In this document: positions 1 to 15,733 of the stretch, piece after piece
How the letters are laid out: every line of letters begins with the position of its first letter
Numbering within the stretch: position 1 is the first letter of the stretch
Source: Tabrizicola thermarum
GTDB lineage: Bacteria; Pseudomonadota; Alphaproteobacteria; Rhodobacterales; Rhodobacteraceae
NCBI RefSeq assembly: GCF_003574395.1
Contig: NZ_KZ984534.1
Location: 358-64,357, forward strand
DNA: 64,000 nt
Direction of reading: 5' to 3'
Translations under genes and position numbers: made by a program
The notes under the pieces: model-generated
Told to the model about the DNA's origin: nothing
The model's input: only the letters and a program-made list of their open reading frames with translations
Databases searched by the model: none

Positions 1-107
1 GACCGAAGTGCAGGCGCCTGATCTTCGCTATCGTCTCCACAACCAGCATCCCGCAAGACGTCCCCCGAATGTTCCCCGGGCAGACTATGGACCCATGCCA
101 CGCAGGA

Positions 108-180
108 GGGGTCCCTTTTGGACGCCGATCACCCCGGTAGCGGGGTCAATATTGCGCGCCGATCAACATTATCGGGGTTC
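108..180 (+). repeat. Tandem degenerate repeats resembling an IS21-family end
   Basis: Two degenerate copies of GGGGTC followed by about 20 bases ending CGCCGATCA start at 108 and 142, 34 bases apart, and a third truncated copy (GGGGTTC) starts at 174. Short repeats spaced like this near an end are typical of the multiple terminal repeats of IS21-type elements, and this wording resembles such ends as I remember them from alphaproteobacteria. No istA or istB gene is visible inside the window, so this would be a solitary end or a remnant. The repeats are seen directly; the IS21 assignment is inference. Confidence 0.4.
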
Positions 181-266
181 ACAGCACGGTGTGTGAATCC
201 CTTTTGTCAACACGGCCTAAGCCAATTGGCTGCCGAGCGCCCGACTTCGTGTCTCAGGTCGCAGGA

Positions 267-1163
267 TCAATAAGTCAGCAGCAGCCTGTCTCTGACTTCC
301 TCAGCCTCGCAGGTCTGCCCGCCCATTTGAAACCGCTTGAGCATTGACCGGCCTACGTTGACCATCAGCTCTCGCTCAAACAGGCCTTCCGGCAAGTCAA
401 TGTCACAGTAGTGGTTGCCGCTTTTCTTGGTCCCGTCGATGCTGAGCACGACATGGACGCCCCGGCGCTTGCAGTCCTCAATGGCTTCCATCAACTTCGC
501 CAGGCTGAAACTCTGCGCCCCGTAAAGGATCGCCTGCGAGTGCGAATAGGGTGGGTCACAGTATACCAGATCGCCAGGTTTGGCCCGCGCCATCGCTTCG
601 GCATAGTCGAGCTGGTGGAACTTCGCGCCTTTGAGCCGGTGGTGCCAGGTATCGACTCGCTTCGAAAAGGCGTCAGGGCTGATGGGTTGATGCGCCCCGA
701 TTGGCGTGGACATATACCCGTCATTCTTTCGGAACCGGACCACGCCGCCAAAGCATGACCGGGTAAGGAACAGGAAGTCAGCCCCGTTCGGGTTGGCGTT
801 GTAGGATGCTTTGATCTTCTCGTATTGTTCTACCCGGTCGCCGGCCTGGAATGTCTCCCACCTGGAGGCATACCAGTGCTTCAATTCATCTGGACGTTCG
901 GCAAGGGCAGCCCATATTTCAATTAACGGGGCAAAGACATCCGAGCCATATCCTTCGCCTGGCGCCAGGGTTGCCATTACACCACCAGCCCCGAGAAATG
1001 GCTCGTAATAGGCGCCGAATTGCGCTGGAAAGTGGCCAATGATCTCGTGGGCGAATTTCTGTTTATTGCCAATCCATTTCAAAAGCTGCGTTCTGAATGG
1101 TGCGGGCGAGCGCATCTTCACCGGTTCCGCGCGGTCTGACCCCGCAAGACGTGCATACTGCAT
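267..1163 (-). CDS. Solitary D12-class DNA adenine-N6 methyltransferase
   Basis: Transfers a methyl group from S-adenosylmethionine to adenine N6 in DNA. The 298-residue protein has the D12 order: KWIGNK (about 29-34), the SAM-binding loop EPFLGAGG (54-61), and the catalytic DPPY (203-206). The start at 1163 has a GAGAGGGA Shine-Dalgarno; reading further upstream only adds antisense of a transposase remnant. No restriction endonuclease is adjacent, so it is an orphan enzyme or part of a decayed mobile element. Its sequence is visibly less GC-rich than lepA next door, and it lies between IS-like remnants on both sides, which suggests horizontal acquisition. Recognition sequence cannot be told from the protein. 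The D12 family call is firm; the biological role (phage-type, R-M relic or regulator) is open. Confidence 0.88.
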   Translation of the reverse strand: MQYARLAGSDRAEPVKMRSPAPFRTQLLKWIGNKQKFAHEIIGHFPAQFGAYYEPFLGAGGVMATLAPGEGYGSDVFAPLIEIWAALAERPDELKHWYASRWETFQAGDRVEQYEKIKASYNANPNGADFLFLTRSCFGGVVRFRKNDGYMSTPIGAHQPISPDAFSKRVDTWHHRLKGAKFHQLDYAEAMARAKPGDLVYCDPPYSHSQAILYGAQSFSLAKLMEAIEDCKRRGVHVVLSIDGTKKSGNHYCDIDLPEGLFERELMVNVGRSMLKRFQMGGQTCEAEEVRDRLLLTY

Positions 1164-1178
1164 CTGGTCCCTCTCTTG

Positions 1179-1355
1179 CCCTTCTTCGGCAGGCTGAAGG
1201 ACTGGCGCAGAGTTGCCACCCGCTACGACAGAGGCGCAAAGATCTGCCTCTCCGCCGTCGCCCTCGCTGCCACCGTCATGTTCCGGCCTTGCCGATCCGC
1301 GAGTCCGGAGCCTGAAACATGTCAACAGGCAACGCTGGATGCTCAAACGTCCTGA
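1179..1355 (+). pseudogene. C-terminal remnant of an IS5-family transposase
   Basis: Reading + strand from 1182 gives FFGRLKDWRRVATRYDR followed by a small-residue stretch containing LSAVALAATVMF, which is the characteristic C-terminal tail of IS5/IS427-group DDE transposases. The match ends near 1290, and the frame runs on through unrelated residues to a TGA at 1353-1355. The N-terminal and catalytic parts are missing: upstream of 1179 the DNA belongs to the oppositely oriented methylase gene, whose start and ribosome site abut the fragment. It is a dead remnant marking a junction between lepA-side core DNA and the methylase. The family assignment is from recognition of the tail motif. Confidence 0.72.
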
Positions 1356-1361
1356 TTGCCC

Positions 1362-3161
1362 TCACCCATCCATCTTCAGCGCCGCGATGAACGCCTCCTG
1401 CGGGATCTCGACCTTGCCGAACTGGCGCATCCTCTTCTTGCCCGCCTTCTGCTTTTCCAGAAGCTTCTTCTTCCGGGTCGCGTCGCCGCCGTAGCACTTG
1501 GCGGTCACGTCCTTGCGCATGGCGGACAGCGTCTCGCGGGCGATCACCCTGCCCCCGATCGCGGCCTGGATCGGGATCTTGAACATGTGGCGGGGGATCA
1601 GGTCCTTCAGTTTCTCGACCATCGCCCGGCCGCGCGCCTCGGCCCGGTCGCGGTGGACCATCATCGACAGGGCATCCACCGGTTCCTCGTTCACCAGAAT
1701 GGACATCTTCACCAGATTGTCCTCGCGGTATTCGCTGATCTGGTAGTCGAAGCTGGCGTAGCCCTTGGTCACGCTCTTCAGCCGGTCGTAGAAGTCGAAC
1801 ACGACCTCGGCCAGCGGCAGGTCATATTCGACCATCGCGCGGTTGCCGGCGTAGGTCAGGTTCAGCTGGATGCCGCGGCGGTCCTGGCAGAGCTTCAGAA
1901 TGTCGCCGAGGTATTCATCGGGCACCATGATCGTAGCCTTGATCCGTGGCTCCTCGATATGGTCGACGTAGGTGAGATCCGGCATGTCGGCGGGGTTGTG
2001 CAGGTCGCGGACCTCGCCGTCCTTCATGTAGAGGCGGAACACGACCGAGGGCGCGGTGGTGATGAGGTCGAGGTCGTATTCGCGTTCCAGCCGGTCGCGG
2101 ACCACCTCGAGGTGCAGAAGGCCGAGGAAGCCCATGCGGAAGCCGAAGCCCAGGGCCGCGCTGGTCTCCATCTCGTAGGTGAAGGAGGCGTCGTTCAGGG
2201 CGAGTTTCTCGATGGCGTCGCGCAGCGCCTCGAAGTCGTTGGCATCGACCGGGAAGAGCCCGCAGAAGACGACGGGAACCGAGGGTTTGAAACCCGGCAG
2301 CGGCTGGTCGCAGGGTTTCCTCTCGTGGGTGATGGTGTCGCCCACGCGGGTGTCGCGGACCTGCTTGATCGAGGCGGTGAATACGCCGATCTCGCCGGGG
2401 CCGAGTTCCGGGATGTCGACCATCTGCGGTTTCAGGACAGCCAGCTTGTCGATGCCGTAGACGGCGCCGGTCTGCATCATCTTGATGCGGTCGCCTTTCC
2501 GGACCACGCCGTCGACCACGCGGATCATGACGACGACGCCGAGGTAGGCGTCATACCAGCTGTCGACCAGCATCGCCTTCAGCGGCGCGTCGCGGTCACC
2601 CTTGGGCGGGGGCAGGCGGTGGACGATTGCCTCCAGCACGTCGGGGATGCCGAGGCCGGTCTTGGCGCTGATCGGGATCGCGTCACTGGCGTCGAGGCCG
2701 ATCACGTCCTCGATGTTCTGCTTCACCCGTTCGGGGTCTGCCGCCGGAAGGTCGATCTTGTTCAGGACGGGGACGATCTCGTGGCCCGCGTCCAGCGCCT
2801 GATAGACGTTGGCAAGCGTCTGCGCCTCGACGCCCTGGCTGGCATCCACCACCAGCAGCGAACCTTCGACGGCGCGCATCGACCGGGAGACCTCATAGGC
2901 AAAGTCGACGTGGCCGGGGGTGTCGATCAGGTTCAGCACATAGGCCTTGCCGTCCTTGGCGACATAGTCGATGCGGACGGTGTTGGCCTTGATGGTGATG
3001 CCGCGTTCGCGCTCGATGTCCATCGAGTCCAGCAGCTGGGCCTGCATGTCGCGTTCGGCGACCGTGCCCGTCGACTGGATCAGCCGGTCGGCCAGGGTGG
3101 ATTTGCCGTGGTCGATATGCGCCACGATGGAGAAATTGCGGATGCGGTCGAGCGTGATCAT
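1362..3161 (-). CDS. lepA: Elongation factor 4 (ribosome back-translocase LepA)
   Basis: Translational GTPase that acts on stalled or mis-translocated ribosomes. The start at 3161 gives 599 residues, the normal LepA length; the frame is open 25 residues further but that extension is proline-rich and not LepA-like. Visible features: G1 loop [13 protein letters not shown] near the N-terminus, the G3 [13 protein letters not shown]4 NKIDLP, EF-G-like domains II, III and V, and the LepA-specific C-terminal domain with [20 protein letters not shown]. No strong Shine-Dalgarno is visible before the chosen start. It stands alone: its 3' end meets the IS remnant/methylase patch and a separate small gene diverges upstream. 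Confidence 0.97.
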
Positions 3162-15136: not shown

Positions 15137-15733
15137 ATGTCCTGGACGGACGAGCGGGTCGAGACGCTCAAGCGCATGTGGAACGAGGGCCAGTCGGCCA
15201 GCCAGATCGCCAAGGAGCTGGGCGGTGTCACCCGCAACGCGGTGATCGGCAAGGTGCACCGGCTGGGCCTGTCGAACCGCGTCGGCAAGGAAGAGGAGGA
15301 GGAGGCGACTTCAACCCCTGCACCGGTCGCCGCTGCCAAGCCCGAGCCCGCAGCCCGCCCCGACCCCGCCCCACGGGCCGAGGCTCCGCGCCAGGCCGCC
15401 CCGGCCGCGCCTGCTGCGGCACCCTCCTCGAACGTGACCCCCCTGCCCGTGCGCAAGGCGATCATCCCGGCGGGCCAGCCCCTGCCGCCGCAGCCCAGCC
15501 TGAACGAGATCAGCCCCGAGGCGCTGGCCTCGGTCCGCGAGGTGGAAAAGCGCGCGCGCAAGCTGACGCTGATGGAACTGACCGAACGCACCTGCAAATG
15601 GCCGATCGGCGACCCCGCGACCGACGATTTCTGGTTCTGCGGCCTGCCCTCGCTGCCCGGCAAACCCTATTGCGAGGCGCATGTCGGCGTGGCCTTCCAG
15701 CCGATGAGCGCCCGGCGCGACCGCCGCCGCTAG
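15137..15733 (+). CDS. gcrA: Cell-cycle regulator GcrA
   Basis: Alphaproteobacterial sigma-70 cofactor that stimulates promoters carrying methylated GANTC sites. The 198-residue protein has the invariant N-terminal helix-turn-helix MSWTDERVETLKRMW and GVTRNAVIGKVHRLGL, a long Ala/Pro linker (about 55-110), and a C-terminal cysteine-containing RNA-polymerase-binding domain with CKWPIGDP, FWFCG and PYCEAH. The linker is of the usual variable kind. A single GAGTC occurs upstream at 14994-14998, a possible CcrM target near its own promoter. The gene is monocistronic as far as can be seen. Confidence 0.96.
   Translation: MSWTDERVETLKRMWNEGQSASQIAKELGGVTRNAVIGKVHRLGLSNRVGKEEEEEATSTPAPVAAAKPEPAARPDPAPRAEAPRQAAPAAPAAAPSSNVTPLPVRKAIIPAGQPLPPQPSLNEISPEALASVREVEKRARKLTLMELTERTCKWPIGDPATDDFWFCGLPSLPGKPYCEAHVGVAFQPMSARRDRRR

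Follow-up and report, generated by a model that had tools for sequence, protein, structure and literature searches.

Results

The Methylase Locus

We have analyzed a DNA adenine methylase gene of Tabrizicola thermarum in a stretch of 64,000 nucleotides, termed the window, that corresponds to positions 358-64357 of contig C3. The contig begins 357 bases to the left of the window, so that the far side of the patch in which the gene lies is unseen. The features of the locus are collected in Table 1.

Table 1. Features in the window discussed in the text
Feature	Position	Strand	Remarks
IS21-family element end	1..168	minus	istA ATG near 49; istA runs past contig start
Two 24-nt repeats within IS21-family end	108-131 and 142-165		
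D12-class adenine methylase, solitary, M.BclI family	267..1163	minus	298 aa (P0001); ATG at 1163, stop at 267; matches PF02086, PDLC03290
lepA-methylase gap	1164..1361	minus	198 bp; contains IS5 remnant
IS5-family transposase, C-terminal remnant	1185..~1315	plus	stop codon lost; one end degenerate (1301-1315, IR-like); methylase lies antisense
lepA	1362..3161	minus	upstream of and codirectional with methylase
GcrA gene	15137..15721	plus	GANTC context

The reading frame of the methylase is intact. Its product matches the Pfam family MethyltransfD12 (PF02086) with E = 1.3e-26, no other match to that family in this genome reaching E = 0.001, and exceeds the cut-off of the NCBIfam Dam subfamily (124.8 bits, cut-off 114.85). 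The best PADLOC profile is MTase_II PDLC03290, matched at 247 bits and nearly full length (profile positions 5-292 of 292), and the protein also matches the PHROG DNA methyltransferase family phrog_56 (E = 3e-44). The sequences EPFxG and DPPY, which we take to be motifs I and IV, are both intact; residues E54, P55, F56, G58, D203, P205 and Y206 are invariant, with at most one gap, across 31 aligned rows of the family. A stretch resembling a ribosome-binding site is found at the gene, and GAGAGGGACCAG precedes the ATG.

The first-pass annotation of this DNA had described the gene as less GC-rich than lepA, and this is borne out. The methylase has a GC content of 57.0%, compared with 64.3% for lepA and 66.6% for the window mean, and its GC3 is 68% as against 91% for lepA. 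Just one of 632 sliding windows of 897 bp is as low in GC, marking the composition as foreign. Differences from six relatives amount to 0.21-0.29, 0.15-0.21 and 0.52-0.58 at codon positions 1, 2 and 3, respectively. Divergence that falls so heavily on the third position fits the pattern of genes under purifying selection, a statement that concerns the lineage and not the time since arrival.

Relationship to M.BclI and the Predicted Site

PDLC03290 is also the best profile (340 bits) for the methylase of plasmid pBcl1 of [Bacillus] caldolyticus NEB414, with which the window methylase shares 47% identity over 92% of the protein. Among the 40 of 2323 matches listed in a plasmid search, three homologues, that of pBcl1 included, stand at 47-52% identity and the others at about 30% or below. 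The methylome of B. caldolyticus NEB414, the source strain of BclI, has m6A in TGATCA as its one Type II motif (PMC5805893); the first-pass annotation had not mentioned the BclI family. That paper does not give the location of the gene, and it is from the methylome of the source strain that we infer the pBcl1 gene to be M.BclI. On each of the three plasmids the methylase has as neighbors a divergent gene, with a product of 285-306 aa, and a small gene for an HTH protein, and the PADLOC profile REase_II PDLC03423 matches the divergent gene in the two plasmids tested and in Paracoccus sediminis. A sequence search for a solved structure of a BclI-type endonuclease returned none, the best E being 0.85.

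K29 of the window methylase aligns with K9 of Escherichia coli Dam when residues are paired by the offset between the two matched chains, and K29 is invariant in the 31 family rows. The accessible text of one study reports that Dam K9A acts outside GATC (PMC6567924), and this remark was all that the open-access literature yielded on the Dam residues that read GATC. From the K29/K9 alignment and the BclI data together, a GATC core is likely and TGATCA is the best guess for the whole site. On this comparison the window methylase very probably adds m6A at TGATCA, the outer bases being less sure than the core; at 47% identity they could differ from those of BclI.

The window contains 12 copies of TGATCA where 37.5 would be expected, which ranks the site ninth lowest among 41 palindromes with an expectation of at least 5. 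We considered whether past restriction might have led to avoidance of the site, and rejected the idea because other palindromes are low too, so that TGATCA does not stand out. Regulation of the gene through its own site was likewise rejected, with TGATCA lying upstream of only one of the 16 methylase genes checked. Scaled from its density in the window, the site would be present about 685 times in the genome. Among the listed matches of searches in the open-access literature we noticed neither a TGATCA methylome nor a BclI-like solitary methylase from Rhodobacteraceae.

The methylase shares the genome with putative components of GANTC methylation. A CcrM/GcrA background had been expected at the outset, and this holds because a CcrM-like gene (N6_N4_Mtase plus RAMA domain, L086) and a GcrA gene are both present. 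The CcrM-like protein would be another source of adenine methylation in the same genome, unlike the window methylase in belonging to the N6_N4_Mtase family; the established site of CcrM is GANTC. An effect of the window methylase on the epigenome is plausible. The genome also contains nine methylase matches to PF01555, on contigs C5, C8, C12, C65, C69 and C73 (three of them on C65), which hint at further modification systems.

The Flanking Insertion Sequences

Downstream of the methylase lies the end of an IS21-family element. As is characteristic of that family, an IstA-type transposase fragment adjoins repeated terminal sequences that end in TG. The 118-aa istA piece matches NF033546 with E = 9.8e-26 and 91 bits; being a fragment, it falls short of the 160 bits set for the whole protein. 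The last 80 bp of the element, with both repeats in them, recur at 99% identity at the extreme ends of contigs C52 and C58, as would be expected if the assembly had broken at an element present in several copies. The istA frame, which includes one N, continues without a stop from the ATG as far as the contig begins, and any istB gene would lie beyond that point. In view of these copies and the open istA we do not call the element decayed, and its insertion downstream of the methylase is probably recent. An IS21-type end had been assigned to 108-180; the family was correct, and the terminus is at 168.

Two further observations concern the contig ends. At the end of C52 (L005/L119) the same IS21-family end abuts a frame that by eye resembles a Fic-domain gene. 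Contig C3 opens with a perfect 26-bp palindrome (1-26) and has a single N at base 357, just left of the window; these may be marks of assembly.

On the other side, IS5-family homology starts 22 bases before the methylase ATG; the first-pass annotation had described the start codon and ribosome site as abutting a transposase fragment. Using 1164-1370 as query we found 12 matching places in the genome, its own included. Of the best five others, four match over 1185-1287 at 83-85% identity and one over 1185-1313 at 79%. In these other places the part that matches is the 3′ end of an IS5-family transposase copy, and 1301-1315 resembles the element end of the fifth copy. Against NCBIfam transpos_IS5_3 the remnant scores E = 1.5e-7 and 31 bits, less than the 110 bits set for the whole protein. 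Of the DDE transposase and the two inverted repeats that make up an intact element of this family, roughly the final 35 codons and a single degenerate end are left. The identity of 79-85% to the other copies and the lost stop codon indicate an old remnant. The earlier assignment of 1179-1355 to an IS5 C-terminal remnant was therefore right in kind and too long in extent, which is 1185 to about 1315. Similarly, the description of the flanks as two decayed mobile elements is true of the IS5 piece and not of the IS21 element.

A scan of positions 1-1700 revealed no terminator-like site on the minus strand, and the sole promoter-like site on that strand, judged by a simple sigma-70 consensus only, lies downstream of the methylase. 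With no terminator-like site in between and the promoter-like site beyond the gene, read-through from lepA would be the simplest source of a transcript. The methylase is probably transcribed in this way or from a chance promoter, the DNA upstream of it now being IS5 remnant.

Absence of the Partner Endonuclease

We examined 38 methylase loci together, a few of them duplicates; a genome scan had given 21 loci, a scan of viral contigs 3 and a family search 10 genomes besides that of the window, two of them already seen. A divergent endonuclease gene is adjacent or one small gene away at 20 of these. The other 18 comprise one cut by a contig edge inside the endonuclease, one remnant and 16 without, one of which has only 60 bases upstream.

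No divergent endonuclease of the PDLC03423 type was found beside the window methylase, and the locus is thus not a complete BclI-type system. Oliveira et al. define a solitary methylase by the lack of a cognate endonuclease within 10 genes; none was detected in the assembly, in which the contig extends 623 bases past the methylase stop. The endonuclease of Paracoccus sediminis has no match in the window genome, which is 99.98% complete, and in a control the same query matched four of nine other genomes (its own, two at full length with 73-74% identity and one partially). A second query, from Actibacterium, also had no match in the window genome, and among 11 genomes matched its own source only. 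These controls extend to 73% identity at the most distant. The term orphan used in the first-pass annotation is therefore apt for the whole assembly, to the extent of a query confirmed by two independent genomes at 73-74% identity. Three HTH queries for a controller near the window methylase were also without match; the same queries find none in most paired loci.

The solitary state is common among relatives in the family. Close methylase homologues are present in 11 of the 394 Rhodobacteraceae genomes searched, and in 10 of the 11 no endonuclease was detected (one of the ten being 71% complete). We compared neighbors within ~2.6 kb, using mechanically picked ORFs and blastp at E = 1e-8, for the solitary copies of nine genomes other than that of the window, together with L026, L029, L036 and one paired locus; these have only the methylase family in common. 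The proposal that IS elements brought the methylase is not supported, since its nearest relatives are solitary too and the solitary copies share no neighbor gene.

Among individual loci, L041 has an endonuclease matching near full length beside a methylase frame that ends early, after 191 residues, through sequencing error or decay. At the solitary loci L026, L029, L036 and L105-L113 the first upstream frame of at least 200 aa, again from mechanically picked ORFs, is divergent in 10 of 12, as an endonuclease would be; the window copy, behind lepA, departs from this arrangement. In an Actibacterium MAG (L025, 2303-7714) a complete BclI-type system is flanked by two phage genes identified by PHROGs, one for the terminase large subunit and one for the portal protein, and three IMG/VR contigs (L046, L047 and L048) have flanking frames that by eye look alike. 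From these flanks the paired form of the L025 type seems to be phage-borne.

The lepA 3′ Side within the Genus

None of 31 other genomes of the genus, several of which are only 59-81% complete, gave a close homologue of the methylase, and two gave remote matches (E = 5e-9 and 6e-9). The recommended comparison of the lepA 3′ side was made in 17 genus relatives, with 235 to 1502 bases of lepA-downstream DNA available, and not one of them matches the window there. In eight of the 17 this stretch matches a lipoprotein-purC region that is here on contig C10, from which we deduce that in this genome the junction between lepA and purC has been disrupted. Taken together, these two counts characterize the lepA 3′ side as a variable cargo site. 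Between lepA and lipoprotein-purC in the relatives (L053-L069) there is small cargo differing by species, some of which by eye looks like RelE/Phd-type toxin-antitoxin genes. The suggestion of lateral acquisition is supported by the missing genus homologues, the unmatched DNA downstream of lepA and the foreign composition.

Phylogeny of the Methylase

In a tree of 31 methylase sequences the window protein forms a clade with L026, L097 and L104 with support of 99/96, and an endonuclease was detected with none of the four. The support is still 99/96 in a second tree from which the long branches L049-L051 were removed. Both trees were made without L041, L042 and L044, whose methylase is broken or partial, and without the duplicates or near-duplicates L043, L046, L048 and L095; L104 was kept; its 236 aa are encoded at the edge of a contig, and its genome is 71% complete.

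We also constrained the solitary Rhodobacteraceae rows to a single clade. With L036 left out, and the group chosen once the first tree was known, a clade of 11 of the 12 rows is not rejected (AU p = 0.42); the backbone is weak. L036, itself solitary, groups with the paired L031 at 100/100. Branches with support force at least three changes between the paired and solitary states, and with L036 beside a paired relative this makes it probable that the family has lost the endonuclease repeatedly.

Discussion

The solitary window gene is in a clade without detected endonucleases, in a family where 10 of 11 genomes with the gene show the same. The window gene thus most likely, as judged from these sequences, arrived already solitary and was not orphaned here by IS elements. 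In the accessible text of Oliveira et al. (PMC4176335), most solitary methylases arrive solitary, and the decay of complete systems rarely yields them. We consider it likely that an M.BclI-type methylase, with predicted m6A at TGATCA, came by horizontal transfer as a solitary gene and was inserted into the variable region 3′ of lepA.

Could the endonuclease instead have been lost in this genome's own history? That could have happened if a complete BclI-type system beside lepA had lost its endonuclease in place, by insertion or recombination of IS5, leaving the methylase. The IS5 remnant is on the side where relatives have the endonuclease, the window methylase has kept the MQY start of paired relatives, and independent losses are likely elsewhere in the family, as for L036. 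The idea of a local replacement of the endonuclease by IS5 is nevertheless weakened by the clade, whose other members also have no detected endonuclease and lie among other genes. The assembly gives no endonuclease match, and origin by decay would place the gene in the class found rare by Oliveira et al. We therefore regard in-place loss as unlikely.

A different doubt concerns activity, and is compatible with other accounts of the origin. The gene might be an inert relic, intact by chance, with neither promoter nor activity, its native upstream DNA having been replaced by the IS5 remnant and the sole promoter-like site lying beyond it. The open frame, the intact motifs, the ribosome-binding-like stretch and the third-position-heavy divergence all speak against this, and make it improbable. 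Lastly, a phage-borne anti-restriction methylase left behind after loss of its prophage, for which one might cite the match to phrog_56, the phage-flanked L025 with its look-alikes, and the six solitary methylases of Paracoccus aminophilus, all in predicted prophage regions in the accessible part of that report (PMC3925955), is quite improbable, since the stretch from lepA to the start of the contig revealed no phage gene to inspection (the methylase being the one gene there that was compared with PHROGs), the 463 phage records with a match are all below 60% identity (26-29% for the 30 of 463 matches listed) and the relatives with phage flanks do not belong to the clade of the window gene.

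If the gene did arrive solitary, the sequence of events might be as follows. Horizontal transfer would have delivered the single methylase gene, lacking the divergent BclI-type endonuclease that is found with it in many other bacteria. The gene would have settled on the variable side of lepA, with IS5 remnant upstream and IS21 downstream, to be transcribed by read-through or a chance promoter. Having no endonuclease the methylase cannot restrict. Its likely effects would be to shield the genome from BclI-like enzymes on incoming elements, the presumed benefit, and to lay down a sparse methylation mark if the window density of sites holds.

The locus may be compared with several known systems. 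It shares with the BclI system of pBcl1 its best PADLOC profile, but on the plasmid a divergent endonuclease and an HTH gene accompany the methylase, whereas neither was found at the gene behind lepA. It resembles the solitary methylases described in the accessible text of Oliveira et al. (2014; PMC4176335) in having no nearby cognate endonuclease and in apparent single-gene horizontal transfer, although those are typically carried by larger mobile elements and the window gene has no visible vehicle. In P. aminophilus, also an alphaproteobacterium, solitary methylases stand beside CcrM, which acts on GANTC and is reported to be essential (PMC3925955). Those genes are in predicted prophages, unlike the one studied here, and the sites given in the accessible part of that report are GANTC, YGGCCR and relaxed m5C, with no TGATCA among them. 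The roving methyltransferases of the Bacteroides fragilis group likewise move between genomes and alter methylomes, but the accessible text ties about 1000 of more than 6000 to intact prophages (PMC10333322), whereas here single genes occur at unrelated sites.

More tentatively, the BclI-type methylase of Rhodobacteraceae may have lost its endonuclease anciently in one main lineage, with separate losses besides, and then moved as a free-standing single gene, kept by selection at unrelated sites in many genera. If this possible but doubtful history were true, the gene would be a selected, roving immunity gene that acts as a portable antidote to related BclI-type systems, of its own family, carried by phages and plasmids, and behind lepA it would be always on.

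We conclude that this is a laterally acquired, BclI-type solitary methylase that is predicted to be active, and probably is. It is an example of something known and not a new kind of system. The clade of the window gene, in which no paired copy was found, offers a fairly resolved case bearing on how solitary methylases originate, by local decay or by traveling on their own, with paired and unpaired relatives available within one bacterial family. The likely site TGATCA provides a direct and testable prediction for transformation or methylome mapping of the organism.
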